Source: Candidatus Methylomirabilis sp. (GTDB taxonomy: Bacteria > DYJV01). Taken from it: a stretch of DNA of 19,916 nt. Below are positions 2,149 to 13,208 of this stretch, in pieces; the stretch's first letter is position 1; every line of letters begins with the position of its first letter. A program made the translations under genes and the position numbers. The stretch is taken from assembly GCA_020722945.1 (NCBI GenBank), contig DYJV01000043.1, positions 1-19,916 on the forward strand. Direction: 5' to 3'. The notes below the pieces were generated by a model, which was given only the letters and a program-made list of their open reading frames with translations, had not been told where the DNA came from and did not search any database.

Positions 2149-3021
2149 TTAGATTATTCCCAATTTTTTGAGTTTTTTATTCAATCTTTCTTGGATAACC
2201 TTGATCTCATCTTTTTTCAAATTTTTATATCTTCCTTGAATCTTAAAATACTCTTCAAGAGGGAGAACTTGGGAAGGTTTGTATGTAACTTTTATTTCAC
2301 TGTCATACTCCCTCTCCATTAAGACAAATATCCCTGCTTCAATACCTTTTCTCATAACTTTGAGGGTATCTGAAGAGTCTATTTTCCATCCCGGGACACA
2401 ACTTGAAAAAAGATGTATAAATCTAAACCCTTTCATACTTTTTGCTTTCTCAAATTTTTTATAAAAATCTTCAGGGTATGCAATAGATGCAGTTGCAACA
2501 TATTCGGGATTGTGAGCCGCAACAATTGAGAATATATCCTTTTTCTCAAAATTAAGCTCTTTACCTACAGGAGTAGTAGTAGTCCAAGCTCCTTCAGGCG
2601 TAGCAGAGCTACGTTGAATCCCTGTATTCATATAAGCTTCATTGTCGTAACATACATATATAAAATTTTCTTTTCTCTCTGCTGCTCCTGATAAAGCTTG
2701 CAAGCCAATGTCAAAAGTCCCTCCGTCACCTGCCCATACAACAACATTTATATCATCTATCCCTTTATATTCATATCCTCGGCTTACACCAGTAGCACAT
2801 GCAGCTGCAACAGCAAAAGGAACGTGCATAAGTGGAAGCTGTAGTGCAGTCATTGGGATTCCGCCAGCAATGATTGACCAGCATGAAGCGGGCATTATAA
2901 TTACGGTATTTTCACCCAATACTTTTAATGCGTGTCTCATAGAGAGTGTTGCTCCGCACCCAGGACAACCGAGATGTCCCTGATTCATATATTCTATGTT
3001 GGTAATTTTTGAAAAGTCCAT
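2149..3021 (-). CDS. 2-oxoacid:ferredoxin oxidoreductase, beta subunit (PorB family)
   Basis: This 290-residue protein is the thiamine-diphosphate-binding subunit of a pyruvate/2-oxoacid:ferredoxin oxidoreductase, a cytoplasmic enzyme that splits a 2-oxoacid and CoA to acyl-CoA, CO2 and two electrons. The start HLGCPGCGA supplies C19 and C22. With C47 (PASCWS) and C208 (SSCVPGW) these match the four-cysteine pattern that holds the proximal [4Fe-4S] cluster in this family. GDGG at 98-101 and DNEAYMNTG from 126 form the ThDP/Mg motif. Length is normal. A GAGGGGG ribosome site precedes the start, 14 bases after the alpha stop codon. It is the last gene of the operon. The substrate (pyruvate, branched-chain, aryl or other oxoacid) cannot be fixed by inspection. 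Confidence 0.93.
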   Translation of the reverse strand: MDFSKITNIEYMNQGHLGCPGCGATLSMRHALKVLGENTVIIMPASCWSIIAGGIPMTALQLPLMHVPFAVAAACATGVSRGYEYKGIDDINVVVWAGDGGTFDIGLQALSGAAERKENFIYVCYDNEAYMNTGIQRSSATPEGAWTTTTPVGKELNFEKKDIFSIVAAHNPEYVATASIAYPEDFYKKFEKAKSMKGFRFIHLFSSCVPGWKIDSSDTLKVMRKGIEAGIFVLMEREYDSEIKVTYKPSQVLPLEEYFKIQGRYKNLKKDEIKVIQERLNKKLKKLGII

Positions 3022-3035
3022 TAATTCCCCCTCAA

Positions 3036-4184
3036 TTAGTCGAGCCAGATAGTTTCTTCTTTGTTGTATTTGGAATTTTTTACTGAATTAACCATATCTA
3101 TGATTGTTTCAGGATAGATATCTTTGCCACCAAGTGTAGCTATAATATCAAATACGTTAGGTTTGTCGGTCAGGTCGTATAAAGCTGTTTTCACCTCTTG
3201 GGTAATACTTCCACAGCAACCGTAAGAGACAGACTTGTTTAGGACAATGATATTTTTTTTACCTTTTAAAATTTTTATTAGCTCATTTTTTGGGAATGGT
3301 CTAAAATATCTCAATCTTACAAGTCCGATATTCTCCCCTTTATCCTTTAACTCTCTCAATGCAACTTTAACTGTCCCTTCAAGAGCACCACATACAATAA
3401 AGAGTGTATCGGAATTTTCAGTGTTAAATGTATGGATAAGGTCGTATTTCCTGTTAAAAAATTGTTCAAATCTGGTATGTGTATCATTTATAATATCAAA
3501 AGAGTTTTCGATGGTTGTATGAATATCTTTTTTCAAATTATAAAAGATATCACCCTTTGCTGCTGCATTGAATGTGTATGGATTGTCAGGGGTAAGATAA
3601 TATTCTGGGATGTAAGGTGGTAAAAATTTATCCACATCCTCTTGGTCTGGGATATCCACGGGCTCCATAGTGTGAGAGAGAATAAATCCATCTATCATTA
3701 TCATAACTGGTAGAAGAAGTTTTTCTGAAATATAGAAACCTTGTATTACTGTATCAAGAGCTTCCTGTGAATTTGCACAGTAGATTTGCAGCCAGCCAAG
3801 ATCTCTTTGCGTCATACTGTCGGTTTGGTCAGTCCAAATATTCCAAGGAGCACCGATTGCCCTGTTTGCATTTACAAGCACCATTGGGACTCTTGAACCG
3901 GGTATCCAATGGAGTATTTCGTGCATAAGGGCTAATCCGTGCGAGCTTGTTGCAGTGAAAGTTCGGACTCCTGCTGTGGCTGACCCAAGAGCGGCAGCAG
4001 CGGCAGATAGTTCTGATTCTATCTTTATGAATTTGGCGTTGAGCTGATTGTTATCAACCATCTCTGATAAAACTTCTATTATGTTTGTTTGAGGGGTAAT
4101 TGGATATGCTGGGATTACCCCCGGTCTTGATAATCTTACACCTTCAGCTATAGCTTCGCTTCCAAGAAGCATATCTCTTCTCAT
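3036..4184 (-). CDS. 2-oxoacid:ferredoxin oxidoreductase, alpha subunit (PorA family)
   Basis: This 382-residue subunit supplies the pyrimidine-binding half of the ThDP site and the substrate-facing loop of the 2-oxoacid oxidoreductase. The conserved YPITPQT loop lies at residues 27-33. IESE, whose E58 corresponds to the glutamate contacting the ThDP aminopyrimidine, is at 55-58. FTATSSHGLALMHE follows at 76-89 and NIWTDQTDSMTQRD at 115-128. The C-terminal part (GALEGTVKVAL, ENIGLVRLRYFRPFP) is the transketolase-C-like domain. It fits the PorA branch better than the single-chain PFOR or the OorA/KorA gamma-alpha fusion. AGGAGA precedes the start, and 16 bases separate it from the upstream stop codon. 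Alpha and beta pair to form the active site. Confidence 0.92.
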   Translation of the reverse strand: MRRDMLLGSEAIAEGVRLSRPGVIPAYPITPQTNIIEVLSEMVDNNQLNAKFIKIESELSAAAAALGSATAGVRTFTATSSHGLALMHEILHWIPGSRVPMVLVNANRAIGAPWNIWTDQTDSMTQRDLGWLQIYCANSQEALDTVIQGFYISEKLLLPVMIMIDGFILSHTMEPVDIPDQEDVDKFLPPYIPEYYLTPDNPYTFNAAAKGDIFYNLKKDIHTTIENSFDIINDTHTRFEQFFNRKYDLIHTFNTENSDTLFIVCGALEGTVKVALRELKDKGENIGLVRLRYFRPFPKNELIKILKGKKNIIVLNKSVSYGCCGSITQEVKTALYDLTDKPNVFDIIATLGGKDIYPETIIDMVNSVKNSKYNKEETIWLD

Positions 4185-4200: not shown

Positions 4201-5829
4201 TTATTTATCCTCTTCCATTTCTATTACACCCCTTGGGCACTCTGAAGAGCATACTGAACAACCTTTACAGTGATCATAATCAAAATTGATGTTTTCATCA
4301 TTTTCTTTACTATACTCAACTGATACATCCGGGCAACAGAACCAGCATGTCCCACATTTGTTACATAAACCGCAGTTAAAACATCTTTTAGCTTCTGCCA
4401 CTATATCTTCTAATGAATGAATTTTGTATATTTCTTGAAAAGAGCTTAATCTTTTATTTAAACTTAATTTTTCAAGTTCTATTTTACCCTTTTTTTCAAA
4501 ATAAAAGGTGTTTATCTTATCAAAAGAAACAATATCTTTATTTTGATAATCGTTTGCAGCTCTAAAAAAATTGTCAGATATATCTTTATCTGTAATTTTT
4601 AGGTAATTGAGTATTTTAAATGCTCCCCTTTTACCTGAGGCTATTGATTCGGTTACTGTGGATGGACCCAATGCAAGATCACCACCAATAAAGATTGAAT
4701 CACTTTCATGGAAGAAGTATTCAGAATCTTGACCTATTGCGAATATAATTTTGTCAAATTCCAAATTAGTTTTTTCTGTGGATTTGATAACTTCTTTTTC
4801 AATTATCTTTTCAACTTTTGATAAAGATACTGTTACCCGATTTTCTGAAATCGAGTAGCTATCAATAACTGAATTTTCAATTATCTGTATTTTCTCTTCA
4901 ATAGCATCATTAACCTCATCTTCAAATGCAGGCATTTCTGAGAGCGTCCTTCTATATATAATTGTAGGTTCGCATTTGAGTCTTTTTAGTGTCCTTGAAA
5001 TATCAATGGCAACATTCCCTCCACCGATTACAGCTATCTTCTGATTTGAGAAGAGGGTGTGATCTCTATTTATATTTTTGAGAAAATCCACTCCTTTAAA
5101 TAAAAATTTGTTGTCTATTGTGAAATTGTCCGGAATCTTTGAGTTCCACAACCCTGTAGCCACAAATACAGCATCGTAGTCCCCCAGAAGAGCTTCTGCT
5201 TTTGCAGGATCAATGTCAGAAGATGTTTGGACAGTAACCCCTGTGTCAATGATATTTTTGAGTTCTTTATCAAGGATAGTTTTTGGTAGTCTATATTCAG
5301 GGATACCGTATCTTAACATTCCTCCCAAAGAATCCTCTTTCTCAAATATAGTAACATCAACACCATATTTTCTTAAAAAGTATGCTGCAGTCATTCCAGA
5401 TGGACCAGAGCCGACAATAGCTACTTTTTTCCCACTGTTTTTTGCGTTAAATTTAAAAGGGATATCAAGTCCGTAATCACCAAGAAATTTTTCTATCTCC
5501 TTGATTGCAACAGGCTCATCAAGAAAACTCCTATTGCAGTCAAACTGACAAAAATGTGGGCAGACCCTGCCACATACTGCTGGGAAAGGGTTTTCATTTC
5601 TTAAAATGTCAAGGGCTTCCCTTAAATTCCCTTTTACAAGAGAGATAATATATTTTGATATATTGATGTTGGAGGGGCATGCCATTGTGCATGGAGATAG
5701 CTTCTCTTTTAAAAATGGTCTAAAAAATTTCCATGAACCTGTCAGATTGACATCTGTTGTAGTAACTGAGATAGGTAGTTTGCTAATATCATAAGAAGAT
5801 AAAACACCTTCATATTCGACAGTTTCCAT
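4201..5829 (-). CDS. FAD/NAD(P)H oxidoreductase (GltD-like) fused to 2[4Fe-4S] ferredoxin
   Basis: This 542-residue protein has three parts. Residues 47-98 carry six cysteines (C47, C51, then C86, C90, C94, C98), as in the Fe-S N-terminal domain of glutamate synthase small subunit and dihydropyrimidine dehydrogenase. Residues 135-400 hold the FAD motif VAIVGSGPSG, an NAD(P) motif IAVIGGGNVA from 265, and the second FAD motif around IGGDLALGPSTV (381-392). Residues 483-532 are a ferredoxin domain with two full CxxCxxCxxxCP sets (C489/492/495/499 and C521/524/527/531) plus extra C483, C486 and C498. Here it occupies the place of the usual delta (ferredoxin) subunit, so I infer that it passes electrons between the oxoacid oxidoreductase and NAD(P). 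It starts 2 bases after the gamma stop codon, with GAGGAG inside the gamma gene. Phenylglyoxylate oxidoreductase has similar modules on separate chains. Confidence 0.88.
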   Translation of the reverse strand: METVEYEGVLSSYDISKLPISVTTTDVNLTGSWKFFRPFLKEKLSPCTMACPSNINISKYIISLVKGNLREALDILRNENPFPAVCGRVCPHFCQFDCNRSFLDEPVAIKEIEKFLGDYGLDIPFKFNAKNSGKKVAIVGSGPSGMTAAYFLRKYGVDVTIFEKEDSLGGMLRYGIPEYRLPKTILDKELKNIIDTGVTVQTSSDIDPAKAEALLGDYDAVFVATGLWNSKIPDNFTIDNKFLFKGVDFLKNINRDHTLFSNQKIAVIGGGNVAIDISRTLKRLKCEPTIIYRRTLSEMPAFEDEVNDAIEEKIQIIENSVIDSYSISENRVTVSLSKVEKIIEKEVIKSTEKTNLEFDKIIFAIGQDSEYFFHESDSIFIGGDLALGPSTVTESIASGKRGAFKILNYLKITDKDISDNFFRAANDYQNKDIVSFDKINTFYFEKKGKIELEKLSLNKRLSSFQEIYKIHSLEDIVAEAKRCFNCGLCNKCGTCWFCCPDVSVEYSKENDENINFDYDHCKGCSVCSSECPRGVIEMEEDK

Positions 5830-5831
5830 AT

Positions 5832-6389
5832 TTACTCCTCTAATTTTTGAGCTATTATAAAAGCTTCCTCAAGTGCTTCAATATTGTTTTCAACTTTGGC
5901 GGGGATATATTTGTGGACTGCTTTTTTGAGTGAGTCTATAGATACAATTTTTGTGAACCCAGCAAATATTCCGAGTATGGGTGCATTTATTATAGGTGAA
6001 GTTTTTGTGCCAAGTTTGTATTTGAAAGCAAGAGAGTTTACATCAAAAGTAATGACATTGCATTGGTCTTCAAAGTGATAGAAACTCTTATTTTTTTCAC
6101 TATTTATGATTACCAGACCACTCTTTTTTATTCCGAGAGAAACATCTATATTCTCAGCAAGCTTTCCTGCCATTACGATTACATAATCTGGTGACTGTAT
6201 AGGACTTCTATTTTCTATTGGGGAATTATCCTCCCTTACAAATGCTGCAACAGGAGCACCTCGCCTTTCAGCTCCAAAAGTAGGGAATGATTGTGCATAT
6301 TTGCCATCGAGAAAAAAAGCATAAGCGAGCATTTTTGAGGCGATCACAGCTCCCTGTCCACCTCTTCCGTGAAATCTTATCTCAATCAT
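5832..6389 (-). CDS. 2-oxoacid:ferredoxin oxidoreductase, gamma subunit (PorG family)
   Basis: This 185-residue subunit carries the family's opening motif [15 protein letters not shown] and the [14 protein letters not shown] segment of the gamma/CoA-binding domain. The frame is open to 6422, but I place the start at 6389: AAGGA at 6396-6400 sits six bases before that ATG, and the family begins right at IEIRFHG. The longer version would add eleven unlikely residues inside the regulator gene. The AAGGA is just upstream of the start and overlaps the regulator's stop codon region (stop 6400-6402), which suggests translational coupling. Gamma contributes to CoA handling in the assembled complex. 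Confidence 0.9.
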
Positions 6390-6399
6390 TGTTATTCCT

Positions 6400-6996
6400 T
6401 TAGATTTTATTGTAGACCACAACCACTGCTACAGCGTTCTCTTTGCCAATAGCTCTGTAGCCGTGTGCGATGTCAGACTCAAAATATAGACAATCACCCT
6501 CTTCCAAAAGAATATTATCACCCTTTTCAGTAATAAATTCAAGCTGTCCTGAGGTAAGCAAGAGACACTCTTCACCTTCATGACTAAACATAACAATATC
6601 ATCTTTATCTTTTGGCTCAAATGTAACCACAAATGGCTCCATATGTTTGTTAACCTTTTTGTATGCGAGAGATTCGTAAGAGTAGCCCAGCTCAATACCT
6701 TTTACACCTCTTCTCCCTGTTTTGATCCGCTCATCACTCTTTACAACAGTAATTTTGGAATCTGATTCTTTCTGCTCAAAGAAATGGGCAATGTCTGTTT
6801 TGAGGGCAGATGCAATTTTGAGAAGTGTTGAAATAGGGGGTGAAACCTGATCGTTCTCTACTTGTGATATTAAACCTTTTGATAGACCTGTTTTTTCGCT
6901 CAAATCTTGAATAGTAATATTCTTATCTTGTCTGAGCTTTCTTATTTTCCAGCCGATACCTAAGTCTTTAAGAGCATTTTTAACTTCTTTTGGCAT
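6400..6996 (-). CDS. XRE-family regulator with C-terminal cupin domain
   Basis: A 198-residue transcription factor. Residues 14-70 form a Cro/CI-type helix-turn-helix (KIRKLRQDKNITIQDLSEKTGLSKGLISQVEND; recognition helix SKGLISQVE). Residues 105-195 form a small cupin barrel (HEGEECLLLTSGQLEF and GDCLYFESDIAHGYRAIG), which in related proteins binds a small effector. AGGAGAG precedes the ATG. It is the first gene of the minus-strand operon and is followed directly by the oxidoreductase gamma gene, so it probably controls this operon and itself. The effector is unknown; a 2-oxoacid or its parent amino acid is a reasonable guess. Confidence 0.88.
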   Translation of the reverse strand: MPKEVKNALKDLGIGWKIRKLRQDKNITIQDLSEKTGLSKGLISQVENDQVSPPISTLLKIASALKTDIAHFFEQKESDSKITVVKSDERIKTGRRGVKGIELGYSYESLAYKKVNKHMEPFVVTFEPKDKDDIVMFSHEGEECLLLTSGQLEFITEKGDNILLEEGDCLYFESDIAHGYRAIGKENAVAVVVVYNKI

Positions 6997-7048
6997 TTTA
7001 CTCTCCTACTAAGAATTTGTGTTATAAAATTTATATAAACGGGTTTTA

Positions 7049-7067
7049 CCTGTTAAAATTGGACAGG
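7049..7067. promoter_or_regulatory. candidate operator, imperfect palindrome
   Basis: CCTGT and ACAGG flank a nine-base AT-rich centre; seven of the nine pairs around the central base match. It sits 53 bases before the regulator's start and overlaps TTAACA (read on the minus strand, 7051-7056), a possible secondary -35 with TATAAA at 7030-7035 and a short 15-base spacer. This would suit autoregulation by the XRE/cupin protein. Binding is inference. Confidence 0.3.
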
Positions 7068-7118
7068 CAGGAGAACTCCATTTCACCTGGGTCAATGAAC
7101 CATTATAGGAGTCTGTCC
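7061..7118 (-). promoter_or_regulatory. structured leader upstream of the regulator operon
   Basis: Read on the minus strand, GGACAGACTCC (7118-7108) pairs perfectly with GGAGT (7079-7075) and CTGTCC (7066-7061), with an eight-base bulge TCTCCTGC on the 3' arm. The bulge contains TCTCCT, the exact complement of the regulator's ribosome site AGGAGA (7002-7007). A competing hairpin pairs TAGGAG (7125-7120) with CTCCTA (7111-7106). If transcription starts from the promoter at 7146-7174, this lies in the 5' leader. It may be a translational switch. It could instead be a short mobile-element relic. I do not recognise a known riboswitch class. Confidence 0.4.
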
Positions 7119-7145
7119 CCTCCTACTAAAATTTAATTATATTGA

Positions 7146-7174
7146 AATATATTTTAATGAAACTAAAAAGTCAA
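7146..7174 (-). promoter_or_regulatory. promoter of the regulator/oxidoreductase operon
   Basis: On the minus strand, TTGACT (7174-7169) is followed after exactly 17 bases by TATATT (7151-7146). Each box matches five of six consensus bases. The transcript would begin near 7139 and carry a leader of about 140 bases before the regulator's ATG at 6996. Confidence 0.55.
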
Positions 7175-7224
7175 CAATTTTTTAATATTTTTTTATATTT
7201 ATAAGCCAAAATAGGAAAAGTGAT

Positions 7225-7253
7225 TTGACATATCTAAAAAATTCAAATATTGA
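7225..7253 (+). promoter_or_regulatory. candidate promoter for the amidase gene
   Basis: A perfect TTGACA at 7225-7230 is followed after 17 bases by TATTGA at 7248-7253, a weak -10. Transcription would start near 7260, right at the base of the hairpin described at 7262-7289. Confidence 0.45.
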
Positions 7254-7261
7254 GATTAAAA

Positions 7262-7301
7262 CACCATAAAAATATTTAAAAGTATGGTGGAATATTTTTT
7301 T
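7262..7301 (+). terminator. terminator-like hairpin before the amidase gene
   Basis: CACCATA (7262-7268) pairs perfectly with TATGGTG (7283-7289) around a 14-base A/T loop, and seven T residues follow at 7295-7301. It looks like an intrinsic terminator, but it sits between the candidate promoter and the ATG at 7325, with no upstream gene on this strand. It may act as an attenuator or as a protective 5' stem. Confidence 0.5.
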
Positions 7302-7324
7302 ACCAACTAAATTAATCTTACCTA

Positions 7325-8986
7325 ATGGATAAACTTATAATAAAAATTTTTTACAACACTTTAATAATTATAATATTTTTTCTCCTATTAAGTAATCATC
7401 TCCTCTCAAAAAATTCAAATGATGAAAAGAGTAGAGATACAGAGAAGATGAATTACTGCATCTCATTATACAACAAATTACAATCGAGCAGTATCAAGAA
7501 CAAAAGTAGTTTTAGTAACGATGTGATAGAGAATCTTTACTACTTTTATCAAATCACGAAAGATAGGACTCAGAAGGGTAGAGCTTTATATTACATAGGG
7601 AGCACCTACTACTATCTCACCAAATACTACAATTCAGAGATTTACGCTGACCTAACAATAGGTATTTTTTCGAAATTGTTAAAAGAGTTGCCAGACTCCT
7701 CATACTCTGATGATGCTAAATATTATATAGCTGATGTCTATTTTTATCATAAAAATATTCCCAAGTTAGCAATTAATGAATTAAAGGAGAATATTTCCAA
7801 ATATCCGAAAGGTGATTTTTATCAGAGAAGTCTTGAACTCCTTAAAAAGATAGAGAAGAAGGTTGCATACCTTGAAAAGATTAAAATAAAGATTAAAAAA
7901 AATGTTGTGCCGCAAGATCATAAGAAGGATGATAAAAAAGTTAATAAAAAGATAGAACCAGAATTTAGAAGTGATTTTAACCTTGAAAAAGTCAAATTTG
8001 TTAATTTAAAAAATCTATTCAGATACTCTGTGGCATTTCAAAAGCTCCCTGAATATTCAATTGTTGAAAGTGACGGGACGGTTACTTTGAAACTATCTCG
8101 GGCGAGGTTCTCAACCAACTTTAAAAATACACCTGAATATAACACCTTTAAAAAATACTTTGCTGTATCAGAAAGTAAAGATGCTCTTGAACTTACCTAT
8201 AATATTCCAGATGGTAATTGGGTTAAAGCAGCTAATACATACATTCTAAAGAACCCTTTGAGGATTGTAGTGGATATTGAATTTGATAATATTGCTTCTA
8301 TTCAATCCCCTAATAACGCAATTTCGACAATTATAATTGACCCTGGCCACGGTGGACATGATCCGGGAGCTACTTATTATGGGGTTGAAGAGAAGGATGT
8401 TGCCCTCAAAATATCCAATTATATAAAGTATTTTATTTACAAATTATCAAATAACAAGTTTAAAGTTTTACTTACCAGAACAACAGATGAATTTTTATCT
8501 CTTGAAGATCGGTCATACTTTGCAAATAAGAGTAAAGCGGATCTATTTATCTCCATACATTGCAATGCCTCAAGAAATGAGAAGACTTACGGTTTTGAAA
8601 CTTACTACTTGAGAGAATCTTCAAACAAAAAGTATTTACAGCGGAAGATGAAGCAGCTTGACGAAACAAACTTTATAATAGAGGATCTTGTAAGGACATC
8701 TAAAATGCAGGAGTCGGTGGAGCTTGCAAACTCTATTCATAAAAAAATAATCAATAATTTAAGGAAAAGTTACTCTGATATTAATGATCTGGGGATTAAG
8801 GAAGCACCATTCTTTGTTCTTTACAATACTAAAATGCCTTCGGTTTTGGCTGAAATATCGTTCCTTTCACATAAAATGGAGAATCAAAGACTCCAAAATC
8901 AAACTTATTTAAAATCAGTAGCAAGAGCAATTGCAGAGGGTATCCTTGATTATATTCAGAAAAATGGTGCTCATAGTAAGAAGTAA
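7325..8986 (+). CDS. N-acetylmuramoyl-L-alanine amidase (Amidase_3) with TPR-like and AMIN-like domains
   Basis: This 553-residue exported protein cuts the bond between N-acetylmuramic acid and the L-alanine of peptidoglycan stem peptides, probably during cell separation. Residues 1-28 are a signal peptide or anchor. Residues 86-175 look like TPR/Sel-type helical repeats (ALYYIGSTYYYLTKYYNSEIYADL, AKYYIADVYFYHKNIPKLAI). A lysine-rich linker follows at about 180-212. Residues 225-325 are an AMIN-like beta domain that may bind the envelope. The catalytic domain runs from 336 to about 548: DPGHGGHDPG (H342), EEKD (E356), SIHCNA (H412) and VLAEISFLS (E510) are the zinc and catalytic residues. No ribosome binding site is visible before the ATG, yet the signal peptide argues for this start. 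The next gene begins at the base after its stop codon. Confidence 0.9.
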   Translation: MDKLIIKIFYNTLIIIIFFLLLSNHLLSKNSNDEKSRDTEKMNYCISLYNKLQSSSIKNKSSFSNDVIENLYYFYQITKDRTQKGRALYYIGSTYYYLTKYYNSEIYADLTIGIFSKLLKELPDSSYSDDAKYYIADVYFYHKNIPKLAINELKENISKYPKGDFYQRSLELLKKIEKKVAYLEKIKIKIKKNVVPQDHKKDDKKVNKKIEPEFRSDFNLEKVKFVNLKNLFRYSVAFQKLPEYSIVESDGTVTLKLSRARFSTNFKNTPEYNTFKKYFAVSESKDALELTYNIPDGNWVKAANTYILKNPLRIVVDIEFDNIASIQSPNNAISTIIIDPGHGGHDPGATYYGVEEKDVALKISNYIKYFIYKLSNNKFKVLLTRTTDEFLSLEDRSYFANKSKADLFISIHCNASRNEKTYGFETYYLRESSNKKYLQRKMKQLDETNFIIEDLVRTSKMQESVELANSIHKKIINNLRKSYSDINDLGIKEAPFFVLYNTKMPSVLAEISFLSHKMENQRLQNQTYLKSVARAIAEGILDYIQKNGAHSKK

Positions 8987-9826
8987 ATGATTAAATTCTC
9001 GATTTATCTAAATACCAGCCTTAGGTTTGACAAGTATTTATCTGACCTACTTCATTTTTCAAGAAATAATATTTTTCAGCTCTTCAAAGATAATAAGATC
9101 AAGCTTAATGGTAAAGATGTTAATAAATCTGTTATTGCCCAAAAGGGTGATGTTGTAGAGATAGATATTTCTCAAAATTACCATTTACCATTTTTAGAAT
9201 CTGATTTTTCAAAATTAAAAGTTATATTTGAAAATCAGGAGTTTTTATTTATATACAAGCCTCCTCTATTTCACTCTGCAAATCTTAAAGGTAGTTTTTA
9301 CTCTGTTGAATCTTATCTCAGTAAGGTTAACAGCAATTATGTTCTTCTCAATAGGCTCGATTTTAATACAGAGGGTATACTTATTGCAGCAAAGAGTAAA
9401 GAAGCTTTTTATAGATACAGAGCTTTTGAAAAATCTGACAAGATAGAGAAGTATTATATTGCTTTTGTTGATGGGTATCTGAAAAAACCGTTAGAGATAC
9501 AGAGTGATTTTATCTCAAAAGGTGTAAAGAGAGTCAAGATATCTTCTTTCGGTTTGGGTAAACACAAAACATTCATAAATCCAATAGCATTTTACAATGG
9601 GGGAACATTAGCAGATATCAAAATATTCAGAGGAGCAAGGCATCAAATTCGTGTCCATTCTGCTTCATCGGGGTATCCACTTATGGGTGATTTTTTATAC
9701 AACAAAAATATTGATAAAGCTGGGAGTTACTTCCTATTCTGTTACAAATATAATATAGATGGAGCTATCTTTGATTTTACTGAGTCATCACCTCTTAAAT
9801 CTTCATTTAAAAAATTTTTAATATAA
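8987..9826 (+). CDS. pseudouridine synthase, RluA-like with S4 domain
   Basis: This 279-residue protein should convert uridine to pseudouridine in RNA. Residues 12-60 form an S4-type RNA-binding domain (RFDKYLSDLLHFSRNNIFQLFKDNKIKLNGK). The catalytic motif is NRLDFNTEG at 122-130, with D125 as nucleophile. KPPLFHSA (91-98) and ARHQIRVHSASSGYPLMGDFLY near the C-terminus are RluA-type. RluA proteins usually read HRLDRxTSG; the N at 122 and the FNTEG tail are closer to the RsuA/RluB pattern, so substrate assignment is open. The ATG follows the amidase TAA with no gap, so translation is probably coupled. Size is typical for the family, and the target base is unknown. Confidence 0.88.
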   Translation: MIKFSIYLNTSLRFDKYLSDLLHFSRNNIFQLFKDNKIKLNGKDVNKSVIAQKGDVVEIDISQNYHLPFLESDFSKLKVIFENQEFLFIYKPPLFHSANLKGSFYSVESYLSKVNSNYVLLNRLDFNTEGILIAAKSKEAFYRYRAFEKSDKIEKYYIAFVDGYLKKPLEIQSDFISKGVKRVKISSFGLGKHKTFINPIAFYNGGTLADIKIFRGARHQIRVHSASSGYPLMGDFLYNKNIDKAGSYFLFCYKYNIDGAIFDFTESSPLKSSFKKFLI

Positions 9827-9937
9827 AAAATCTTGTAATTTTGCCAATCTTATATTAGAAGGTTTAACTTTTTCAAATTCCAATATGAAATATAAATTTC
9901 AGACTTTTTATCTGGTTTTAATAGAAAAGGAGAAAAT

Positions 9938-10873
9938 ATGATAGAAGTTAGGAATCTATCTAAATATTATGGAGCTTTTTCTGCAATTGAGAATATATCT
10001 TTTGATATAACAAAGAGTGAAATAGTCGGATTTTTAGGTCCAAATGGTGCAGGGAAAACTACAACAATGAAAATCCTTACATGTTTTATGAGACCTACTT
10101 CTGGGAGTGTTACTATTGGAGGAGTTGATATATATGACAACTCTCTCGAAATAAAGAGGAAGATCGGTTATCTCCCTGAGAATAACCCCCTATACTACGA
10201 TATGACAGTAAGAGAGTATCTATCCTACATAGCTGCAATAAAAGAGATCAGTAAAAGTGAGATTGGCAGTGCAGTAAATACTGTTTCTCAAAAGTGTGCT
10301 CTAAATGATGTTTTAGGTAAAAAGATAGGGACTCTTTCAAAGGGATACAAACAGAGGGTAGGTATATCTCAGGCAATTATTACAAACCCACAGATATTAA
10401 TACTTGATGAGCCTACTTCAGGTCTTGACCCCAATCAGATAGTTGAAATTCGTGAATTGATAAAGGAACTTGGAAAGGAGAAGACGGTAATACTCAGCAC
10501 TCATATTTTATCAGAAGTTGAGACAACTTGTAATCGCCTGATTATAATCAATAATGGTAAAATAGTTGCAGATGGCACCAAAGATGATATTGCTAAAGAT
10601 AATAAAGATAAATGGGAGATAATTTTAACTGTCAAGAGTGATGAAGTTGAAGATGTAAAGAGTAAACTTTTATCTACCCATGGTGTAATTGGGATAAAAG
10701 ATATAGTTAAAATTGAAAATGGTATCTTTTCATTTAAAGTGGAGAGTATCCCCCAAAATATAGCAATAGAGAGTATATTTGCCCTCTGTTCGGCTAACAA
10801 TTTTATAATTTATGAATTTAAGAGGGTGGAGCATTCACTTGAAGAGATATTCAAACAACTAACAGTTGAGTAA
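9938..10873 (+). CDS. ABC transporter ATP-binding protein (GldA/NatA type)
   Basis: This 311-residue cytoplasmic ATPase powers the permease encoded next to it. Walker A is GPNGAGKTT at 34-42, the signature is LSKGY at 133-137, and Walker B with the catalytic glutamate is ILILDEPTSGLDP (D157, E158), followed by the H-loop H189 (LSTHI). The C-terminal 90 or so residues are the accessory domain common in ABC-2 exporters and Gld ATPases, ending SLEEIFKQLT. AAGGAG lies just before the ATG. The preceding 111-base gap has no convincing promoter or terminator. Order ATPase-permease-GldG matches the gldA-gldF-gldG modules found in many non-gliding bacteria. The cargo is unknown. Confidence 0.92.
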   Translation: MIEVRNLSKYYGAFSAIENISFDITKSEIVGFLGPNGAGKTTTMKILTCFMRPTSGSVTIGGVDIYDNSLEIKRKIGYLPENNPLYYDMTVREYLSYIAAIKEISKSEIGSAVNTVSQKCALNDVLGKKIGTLSKGYKQRVGISQAIITNPQILILDEPTSGLDPNQIVEIRELIKELGKEKTVILSTHILSEVETTCNRLIIINNGKIVADGTKDDIAKDNKDKWEIILTVKSDEVEDVKSKLLSTHGVIGIKDIVKIENGIFSFKVESIPQNIAIESIFALCSANNFIIYEFKRVEHSLEEIFKQLTVE

Positions 10874-10891
10874 ATTTTGAAAGGGAGATAG

Positions 10892-11602
10892 ATGAAAGGG
10901 AAAATAATAGCAGAAAGAGAGCTTCACAGTTACTTTAATTCGCTATCCGCATACATTGTCGGTGGTGTATTTCTTTTTGTAACAGGGTGGTTTTTTGTAT
11001 CTAATCTTTTTTTGGCAGCAATAGCAAGTATTAGGACAGTTGTAGAGCTTGTCCCATTTCTGTTTCTTTTTTTTATTCCCGCAATTACAATGGGGAGTTT
11101 TACAGAGGAGCGGAAAACAGGGACAATAGAGATGCTTTTTACACTTCCGGTTACTGATTTTGACATTATAGCGGGGAAATTCCTCTCAAATTTATACCTT
11201 ACCTTAATAATTTTATCATTTACACTCTTTTATCCAATAACACTCTTTATAATTGGGGATCCAGATCTTGGAGAGGTAATCTCACAGTATATAGGACTTA
11301 TACTCCTTGCATCAGCTTATATTTCAATAGGTATGGCAGTATCATCCTTTTCATCAAATCAGGTTGTTTCCTTTATCATTACTTTTTTGATACTCTTTCT
11401 ATTTTTTATTATTGACAAATTTCTTATATTTTTTCCTGATAATGTTTCATCAGTAATAAATTATATATCTGTAATGCCTCACTTTCACAATATTATCAAA
11501 GGTGTTATTGATTCCACTGATCTTGTATACTTTTTTTCATTAATAATAGCGTTTCTTTATATAACATTATACTCTCTTGAGAGGAGACATTGGAATGGAT
11601 AG
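10892..11602 (+). CDS. ABC-2 type permease (GldF-like)
   Basis: A 236-residue inner-membrane protein with about six membrane segments (roughly 20-42, 53-69, 98-122, 134-155, 157-181, 211-229). FTEERKTGTIEMLFTLPV at 70-87, between segments 2 and 3, is the conserved cytoplasmic coupling segment of the ABC-2/GldF/NosY family. AAGGGAG precedes the start, 18 bases after the ATPase stop codon. Its last codons overlap the start of the next gene. It should form the channel partner of the ATPase. The transported molecule cannot be told from sequence. Confidence 0.9.
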   Translation: MKGKIIAERELHSYFNSLSAYIVGGVFLFVTGWFFVSNLFLAAIASIRTVVELVPFLFLFFIPAITMGSFTEERKTGTIEMLFTLPVTDFDIIAGKFLSNLYLTLIILSFTLFYPITLFIIGDPDLGEVISQYIGLILLASAYISIGMAVSSFSSNQVVSFIITFLILFLFFIIDKFLIFFPDNVSSVINYISVMPHFHNIIKGVIDSTDLVYFFSLIIAFLYITLYSLERRHWNG

Positions 11603-13208
11603 AAAAAAGTTGGGAGCGTTTAATGCTCTCTTTTCAATATTTATATTTATTGCTCTTTTAATAGTGATAAATATTCTTGCATACAAATATCATGCTAAAT
11701 TGGATTTTACCGAAAACAGCATCTACTCTTTGAGCAAGGAGAGTAGAGAGATTGCAAAAGGGGTAGAGAGTAATTTTATAGTTAAATGTTTTTTCAGTAG
11801 AAATCTCCCTGAAAATTACATGGTTAACAAAAGATATCTGAAAGATCTTCTTCACGAGTATAGTTCCTTATCTAATGGAAAGATAAGTTATGAATTTATA
11901 GACCCTGAAGAATCTACAGAATGGAAAAGTAAGTTGCAATCATTAGGGATACCGGGTCTTCAGATAACAGGTGTAACCAGTGATAAGTTTGAGGTTAAAA
12001 ATATATATATGGGGATAGCATTTTTCTACGGAGACAAAAAAGAGGTCATCCCTATTTTAAGAACTCCTTCAAATCTTGAATATAACATAACCAAAATAAT
12101 CAGCAAACTTACTTCAAAACAGCTTCAAACTATTGGATTTTTATCAGCAAGTGGCACCGCTATCCCTGAAATTGATATGAAGAGTCTCACTGAAGTTATG
12201 TCAGAGTATTTAGATATCAAAACAGTAAAACTAATAAAATATATTGGGATAGAAAAGGGGACTGATATCCTTGTTGTTGCAAATCCAAGAATGCAGCTTA
12301 GTGAATGGACAAAATTTCAGATAGATCAGTTTATAATGTCTGGAAAGCCTGTAATTTTTCTTGTTGATATGTCGAGCACAGATTTTACAAATATGTCATC
12401 TATAAAGAGTAACACAGATATAAATACACTCCTCCAAAAGTATGGGGTGAAAGTCTCTGAAGAGTTAATTGCAGATTCCAAAAATCAGAGGATAGGATTA
12501 GAGAAAATGGTTGGAGGGTTTGTTGTTCAAAATACTATTAACTACCCTTTTTATCCTGTTTTCACAGATATCAATCGAGATTTTACATTTTTGTCAGACT
12601 TTGATGGATTGTATTTCCCGATAATAAACAGAATTGAGATTATTGACAATAGCAGTAAAAGTAATATACATTGGTTATTTAAAAGTTCCCCCAAAAGTTT
12701 TCTCCAAAATCCACCTTACGATATTGACCCTTACCAAAATTTTGATCCTTCAAAGTTTAATTCAAACGAGCAGTATATTGGTGGGGTAATAATAGATGGT
12801 GCGTTAGAAAGTGCTTACAATAATGTTGATCTTAACAAACTTAATGACCCAGATATTGAGAAAAAGGTTAACAAAGAGGATTATGAAAAGTTTGATTTAA
12901 ATCAGATAAAGAAGAGTTTTATCTCAAAAACGGATAAAGCTAAAGTTATAGTAATAGGGGACTCTGATTTCATAAAAGATGCTTTGATGGATAAAACAAT
13001 GGAGTCGTTCTTTATGAATATGGTTGATTGGTTGATAGACAACAGAGGACTTATGAATATCCGTTCAAAGGGTATAAAGCTAAGATTAATAGATGAACCA
13101 TCCTCTTCTGTTAAGTTATTTATAAAAGTATTTAATATTGTTGTTCCTACTATTTTACTTCTGCTCATTGGGTTTTTTATAAGAGCAAGATGGGGTAAGA
13201 AGTATTAA
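11595..13208 (+). CDS. GldG-like ABC transporter auxiliary protein
   Basis: This 537-residue membrane-anchored protein has a membrane segment at about 11-29, a large extracytoplasmic region with the family's opening DFTENSIYSLSKESREI and the ILRTPSNLEYNITKIISKL segment, and a closing membrane segment near 508-530 followed by basic RARWGKK. I start it at ATG 11595, preceded by GGAGA at 11583-11587, not at the in-frame TTG at 11577. It overlaps the permease stop codon by eight bases (ATGGATAG), so translation is coupled. Related operons often add a DUF4340 protein after GldG; none is present here. Confidence 0.87.
   Translation: MDRKKLGAFNALFSIFIFIALLIVINILAYKYHAKLDFTENSIYSLSKESREIAKGVESNFIVKCFFSRNLPENYMVNKRYLKDLLHEYSSLSNGKISYEFIDPEESTEWKSKLQSLGIPGLQITGVTSDKFEVKNIYMGIAFFYGDKKEVIPILRTPSNLEYNITKIISKLTSKQLQTIGFLSASGTAIPEIDMKSLTEVMSEYLDIKTVKLIKYIGIEKGTDILVVANPRMQLSEWTKFQIDQFIMSGKPVIFLVDMSSTDFTNMSSIKSNTDINTLLQKYGVKVSEELIADSKNQRIGLEKMVGGFVVQNTINYPFYPVFTDINRDFTFLSDFDGLYFPIINRIEIIDNSSKSNIHWLFKSSPKSFLQNPPYDIDPYQNFDPSKFNSNEQYIGGVIIDGALESAYNNVDLNKLNDPDIEKKVNKEDYEKFDLNQIKKSFISKTDKAKVIVIGDSDFIKDALMDKTMESFFMNMVDWLIDNRGLMNIRSKGIKLRLIDEPSSSVKLFIKVFNIVVPTILLLLIGFFIRARWGKKY

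Follow-up and report, generated by a model that had tools for sequence, protein, structure and literature searches.

2-Oxoacid oxidoreductases are commonly represented as ferredoxin-dependent, and in flux models a separate ferredoxin:NADP step comes after them. In the four-subunit 2-oxoacid:ferredoxin oxidoreductases, the delta subunit (PorD/VorD) is a free protein of around 100 aa that shows a TGxWRxxRP arm and a C-terminal 2[4Fe-4S] domain, possesses neither a flavin nor a nucleotide site, and is encoded in the slot between gamma and alpha. In phenylglyoxylate:NAD+ oxidoreductase, the modules are reportedly situated on separate chains. DsrL, an NAD(P)H:acceptor oxidoreductase that acts with DsrAB in dissimilatory sulfur metabolism, consists of an N-terminal Fe-S domain, an FAD/NAD(P) core, a linker and a C-terminal 2[4Fe-4S] domain (PMC7596348). 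Genes linked to subunits of pyruvate/ketoisovalerate:ferredoxin oxidoreductase are named in the 2020 DsrL paper only for exclusion (PMC7596348), i.e., the combination was noticed but not studied there. The literature searched, which did not extend to most subscription journals, yielded neither a paper devoted to the Por-linked fused subunit nor biochemistry of the Por-linked clade.

The operon described here is located on a stretch of 19,916 nt from Candidatus Methylomirabilis sp. (contig DYJV01000043.1; in the following, the window). It probably encodes a CoA-acylating 2-oxoacid oxidoreductase of the alpha-beta-gamma-delta type, the delta subunit of which has been remodelled by an NfnB/GltD-like NADPH-FAD module situated between its arm and its 2[4Fe-4S] domain. 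This reading builds on gene content and order, on motifs and their conservation, on a homologue fused to gamma and on a separate group of alpha subunits. The subunits would assemble into one complex, which is expected to be specific for NADP(H), to work in the oxidative direction, and to act on a substrate other than pyruvate, perhaps on branched-chain 2-oxoacids.

Organization of the operon

The genes follow each other in the order regulator, gamma, 542-aa protein, alpha, and beta (Table 1); being only 2-16 bp apart, they are regarded as one operon. As in the four-subunit Por/Vor enzymes, homologues of alpha, beta, and gamma are adjacent, the ThDP-binding beta subunit possesses four Cys that are candidate [4Fe-4S] ligands (C19, C22, C47, and C208), and the alpha pocket contains the Thr and the Arg. 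The gene between gamma and alpha (window 4201-5829, minus strand) is a complete ORF of 542 aa with an ATG start and without internal stops. A separate small gene for a delta ferredoxin is absent from this slot, in which the 542-aa ORF is the only one to encode a ferredoxin. The original prediction, according to which a GltD-like FAD/NAD(P) protein with a C-terminal 2[4Fe-4S] ferredoxin is encoded at this position, is thus confirmed by ORF, Pfam domains, and gene order.

Table 1. Features of the operon, with positions in the window and the evidence for each assignment
Feature	Position	Strand	Evidence
XRE-family helix-turn-helix and cupin regulator, first gene of the operon	6400..6996	-	HTH_3 5e-14, Cupin_2 5e-12
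Gamma subunit, PorC-like	5832..6389	-	POR domain 1.5e-33; TIGR02175 188.9 bits (cut-off 81.1)
Delta-type subunit with built-in NADPH-FAD module, 542 aa	4201..5829	-	Domains, AlphaFold model, structure match
Delta-type N-terminal arm LTGSWKFFRP, residues 29-38	5716..5745	-	Invariant residues; delta-arm HMM
GltD/NfnB-type N-terminal Fe-S domain, residues 45-119	5473..5697	-	Fer4_20 3.8e-20; alignment
FAD and NAD(P) double Rossmann core, residues 134-413	4591..5430	-	Pyr_redox_2 1.6e-24; NfnB, GltD, and DPD structure matches
YRR, residues 292-294, predicted NADP(H) 2'-phosphate site	4948..4956	-	Sequence; DsrL-2 analogy
Delta-like ferredoxin domain, residues 483-531	4237..4383	-	RCxxCG and two CxxCxxCxxxCP; TIGR02179 49.4 bits
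Alpha subunit, PorA-like	3036..4184	-	POR_N 4e-68, PFOR_II 3e-25; pocket T30, R108, W114
Beta subunit, ThDP site	2149..3021	-	TPP_enzyme_C 2e-19; aligned with solved POR beta 9bt4_C

The leader of the operon (window 6997-7121) contains an intergenic element of around 120 nt, copies of which (86-88% identity) are found at two other intergenic sites (contigs C31 and C37). It has no match in Rfam, its structure is no better than that of shuffled sequences, and it is perhaps a small mobile repeat. Elsewhere in the window, a gene for a PQQ-type beta-propeller protein (360-1897) appears to be spread over two frames that overlap (360-650 and 581-1897), possibly as the result of a frameshift.

Alpha subunit and substrate

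In PFOR, Thr31 and Arg114 hold the carboxylate, and Leu121 helps to line the narrow pocket for pyruvate (PMC5020499). Thr30 and Arg108 of the window alpha align with the first two, and Trp114 aligns with Leu121. Each of the 25 module-linked alphas has a Trp at this position, whereas among the 41 delta-linked alphas read only three do (L094, L136, and L137). The alphas of L136 and L137, enzymes with a free delta, fall within the module-linked group, and their delta arms resemble the module-linked arms. The module-linked alphas form one group apart from the pyruvate-type clade, which holds the solved POR 9bt4 and the ordinary por of the same genome. The Trp and the separate alpha group make pyruvate a doubtful substrate.

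That the operon encodes an ordinary pyruvate oxidoreductase using NADP+, and thus adds one more pyruvate enzyme to the genome, is accordingly considered unlikely, although the best-scoring alpha model is PorA_Arch (432 bits) and the pocket Thr and Arg are retained: the score lies below the cut-off of 550, as does that of the ordinary por alpha, the Trp and the alpha grouping point away from pyruvate, and the genome already possesses a por operon with a free delta as well as a NifJ-type enzyme.

Compared with the alphas of ordinary POR, the module-linked alphas are shifted in their NCBIfam scores towards the 2-ketoisovalerate (VOR) model, with PorA_Arch leading; an assignment to branched-chain VOR on the basis of these scores was dropped, since PorA_Arch stays on top. 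With low confidence, branched or other bulky 2-oxoacids may fit the predicted pocket better than pyruvate. Neighbouring genes were also considered as a clue to the substrate and discarded, being suggestive of branched-chain acids in places and inconsistent between loci: panB/panE adjoin some of the cassettes in Desulfobacterota/Syntrophaceae, whereas a gene of the methylmalonyl-CoA-mutase type adjoins L087 and succinate dehydrogenase genes adjoin L088. Genes resembling panE and panB were both recognized by Pfam in L015 and both by matching N-termini in L016; L022 has a panE-like gene only.

Domains, clusters, and fold of the 542-aa protein

The Pfam domains of the 542-aa protein are Fer4_20 (residues 45-119), Pyr_redox_2 (134-370), and Fer4 (515-537), and its best NCBIfam model is the generic 'NAD(P)-binding protein' PRK12771 (469 bits, cut-off 516). 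The AlphaFold model (mean pLDDT 83.5, pTM 0.83) matches the large subunit of NfnABC with Z 38.7 and rmsd 2.6 over 442 residues, and matches GltD and DPD as well. NfnB, respectively the NfnABC large subunit, and GltD thus represent the closest solved fold to the core, but their partner proteins differ.

A further difference from NfnB concerns the N-terminal Fe-S domain, the ligands of which were assigned following PMC7596348. In the alignment, C51, C90, C94, and a conserved Glu are retained. The ligands of the proximal cluster are kept, whereas the pair of Cys employed by NfnB ahead of C47 is missing. With only half of the four ligands left, the NfnB-type distal cluster is doubtful, and the protein probably carries fewer clusters than a simple reading as 'GltD plus ferredoxin' would give. 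The C-terminal domain exhibits the canonical CxxCxxCxxxCP twice (residues 489-499 and 521-531), and two further conserved Cys at 483 and 486.

A module probably inserted into the delta subunit

The protein resembles a delta subunit at both of its ends. At its beginning, TGxW is present in 22 of 22 Por-linked homologues with a readable N-terminus, and the same arm motif precedes the ferredoxin motifs in 36 of 43 free deltas (with a stricter regular expression). The TGxW expression also matched 1 of 13 DsrL N-termini, and a profile HMM built from 41 free-delta arms, with 860 shuffled N-termini as null, was used as evidence instead. This profile, which covers a short stretch only, recognizes 20 of the 22 Por-linked N-termini with 10.9-29.7 bits (14.3 bits for the window protein), whereas the best shuffled sequence reaches 5.2 bits; all 13 DsrL are below 0 or unreported, and none of 8 other relatives exceeds 1.2 bits. 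The two exceptions, L040 (4.5 bits) and L075 (1.6 bits), lie within the range of the shuffled sequences. T30, G31, W33, and P38 of the arm are invariant among 21 aligned Por-linked proteins, as are ten C-terminal Cys. Since the RP end of the arm is found in DsrL too, the TGxW part alone separates the two groups.

At the other end, the C-terminal domain of the window protein stays under the cut-off of the PorD_KorD model TIGR02179 (49.4 versus 60.05 bits), and those of several Por-linked homologues exceed it. With a TGxW[RK]xx[RK]P delta arm at the start and a delta-like ferredoxin at the end, the NADPH-FAD module appears to be inserted inside a delta subunit, with around 440 residues between arm and ferredoxin that the free PorD/VorD deltas do not have. 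The 'fusion' originally proposed can be sharpened to a module apparently placed between arm and ferredoxin domain of delta. Residues 1-31 of the AlphaFold model, including the start of the arm, are of low confidence; this would suit a segment that folds on its partners, though the model gives no proof of it.

Relation to DsrL and to phenylglyoxylate oxidoreductase

The window protein shares its domain order with DsrL and its YRR with the NADP(H)-specific DsrL-2 (PMC7596348). The two also differ: the partner of the window protein would be a 2-oxoacid oxidoreductase instead of DsrAB, and its TGxW delta arm was not detected by the arm HMM in the 13 dsr-linked proteins. A tree was built from 22 Por-linked proteins, 13 dsr-linked proteins, called DsrL from their proximity to dsrAB, and 8 others. 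In it, the Por-linked proteins are situated on one side of a branch with moderate support (85/80), and the DsrL proteins on one side of another (100/99). An identification of the 542-aa protein as DsrL was rejected, as its gene lies inside a Por operon, the protein belongs to a separate clade, and dsrA over the cut-off is absent from the genome (best 4e-4). An inserted module suggests a possible relation of the DsrL-type architecture to the Por-linked proteins, which the present tree leaves unsettled.

Phenylglyoxylate:NAD+ oxidoreductase PadEFGHI (Hirsch et al. 1998, as cited in PMC5109826) is likewise described as a 2-oxoacid oxidoreductase directly linked to a nicotinamide nucleotide. The likeness to this enzyme pointed out earlier is valid in general terms, but does not extend to the alpha, beta, and gamma subunits: the NCBIfam models PadG (254.9 of 700 bits), PadI (254.1 of 700), and PadE (141.9 of 300) all remain far under their cut-offs, and an assignment as an Azoarcus-type phenylglyoxylate enzyme was rejected.

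Distribution, gene order, and natural fusions

A homologue at 1e-70 was found in 27 of 386 sampled genomes, a count that takes in DsrL and other relatives, and an alpha-based search revealed a module-linked alpha in 13 of 192 sampled genomes. When named genomes were scanned by sequence, metagenome genomes with the labels Deltaproteobacteria, Syntrophaceae, Thermodesulfobacteriota, and Myxococcota turned out to carry the cassette; the one other genome of the window's phylum that was compared shows the same arrangement (55% identity). Almost every Por-linked locus read shows the order gamma, module, alpha, beta; these loci come from several phyla, and such repetition in many other genomes argues against chance. 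Of 27 related loci, several of them incomplete, 9 have a homologue of the regulator directly in front of gamma. A search of plasmids yielded distant relatives only. The single parts and the domain set are known; their arrangement recurs in scattered bacterial lineages.

Two natural fusions were encountered. In L077, gamma and module form a single ORF of 748 aa (gamma 8-150, module 222-745); in another genome, alpha and beta are fused. The former constitutes the best sequence evidence for the module being a subunit. Together with the conserved slot and the delta-like arm and ferredoxin, it makes the original prediction that the protein belongs to the complex, in the position of delta, very likely.

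Alternatively, the operon might encode a separate oxidoreductase of the NADPH:ferredoxin type, coupled through a soluble ferredoxin and not bound as a subunit. Related proteins outside the Por context (GltD, NfnB, PRK12771 family) do serve other partnerships, and in two genomes (G022 and G169) the module gene is not located beside alpha and beta on the same strand; yet the operons with the module have no free delta, the protein itself contains both the delta arm and the delta-like ferredoxin, and gamma can share an ORF with the module, such that a separate enzyme is judged quite improbable.

The loci of these two genomes (L040 in G022, L075 in G169) possess a variant cassette, in which regulator and gamma are followed by an ORF of around 147 aa (without a Pfam match in the L075 copy) and then by a module with LVCVEP replacing YRR. 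Alpha and beta are found elsewhere or on the opposite strand from the module. In the tree, the two represent the sister lineage of the window's clade. Given the lack of YRR, the distance of alpha and beta, and arms at the level of shuffled sequences, the coupling is not universal.

The reading of a remodelled delta can be taken further, albeit tentatively: the enzymes may constitute an undescribed, widespread NADP-linked clade that was born by insertion of the NADPH-FAD module into delta, has a range of substrates other than pyruvate, and gains NADPH directly from amino-acid-derived 2-oxoacids without free ferredoxin.

Nucleotide specificity and direction of electron flow

Concerning the nucleotide, 24 of 27 Por-linked loci encode YRR or FRR; of the remaining three, one has an incomplete ORF. 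In DsrL-2 of Desulfurella amilsii, YRR coincides with an enzyme that accepts NADP(H) but not NAD(H) (PMC7596348). By this analogy, the window enzyme is predicted to use NADP(H) rather than NAD(H), whereas the L040/L075 lineage, with LVCVEP instead of YRR, may use NAD. Of the direct electron exchange with NAD(P) originally proposed, the NAD(P) site is present, and NADP(H) is the nucleotide predicted from DsrL-2.

If delta is remodelled as proposed, the 2-oxoacid and CoA would react on ThDP at the alpha/beta interface to acyl-CoA and CO2, and the electrons would pass from ThDP to the [4Fe-4S] cluster of beta, from there to FAD by way of the remodelled delta, over its two C-terminal clusters and a remaining N-terminal cluster, and finally, as hydride, to NADP+.

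The potential of 2-oxoacid/acyl-CoA + CO2 is around -0.5 V and that of NADP+/NADPH around -0.32 V, such that by textbook potentials a carboxylation driven by NADPH is strongly uphill unless the enzyme is bifurcating. As the operon encodes no second flavin branch, reductive carboxylation by NADPH is unlikely, and the former suggestion of electron flow in either direction, including reductive carboxylation, finds no support. The flow is probably oxidative, supplying NADPH. A bifurcating or confurcating enzyme, the FAD of which would divide the electrons over NADP(H) and another acceptor and which could permit NADPH-dependent reductive carboxylation, is the least probable alternative and a very improbable one: although the core is nearest to the large subunits of the bifurcating NfnABC and StnABC, the operon contains neither a second flavoprotein nor an NADH branch, the ligands of the distal N-terminal cluster are incomplete, and the same core fold exists in the non-bifurcating GltD and DPD.

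If the reading of a remodelled, NADP-linked delta is true, scattered bacterial genomes would make NADPH directly from 2-oxoacids, and genes labelled just 'NAD(P)-binding protein' beside Por genes would gain a role.

Other 2-oxoacid oxidoreductases of the genome

The genome carries six POR_N alpha domains, among them that of the window operon. An ordinary por operon on contig C50 has a free delta of around 100 aa in the slot between gamma and alpha, contig C23 holds a VorB-like alpha, contig C6 a single-chain NifJ-type enzyme, and contigs C100 and C106 indolepyruvate-type enzymes, the types on C6, C100, and C106 being inferred from length and context. The window operon is hence an additional 2-oxoacid enzyme and not the only one.

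In the ordinary por operon (L041, G000:C50:12000-24325; positions 6136-12152), gamma, delta, alpha, and beta are followed by genes for NuoE-like, NuoF-like (with 2[4Fe-4S]), and 2Fe-2S/4Fe-4S proteins, an arrangement that suggests a second, NADH-type link for pyruvate oxidation. The VorB/2-oxoacid alpha-like gene on C23 (L042, 10047-11087) has no adjoining beta or gamma, and a candidate beta-like partner is situated on contig C84.
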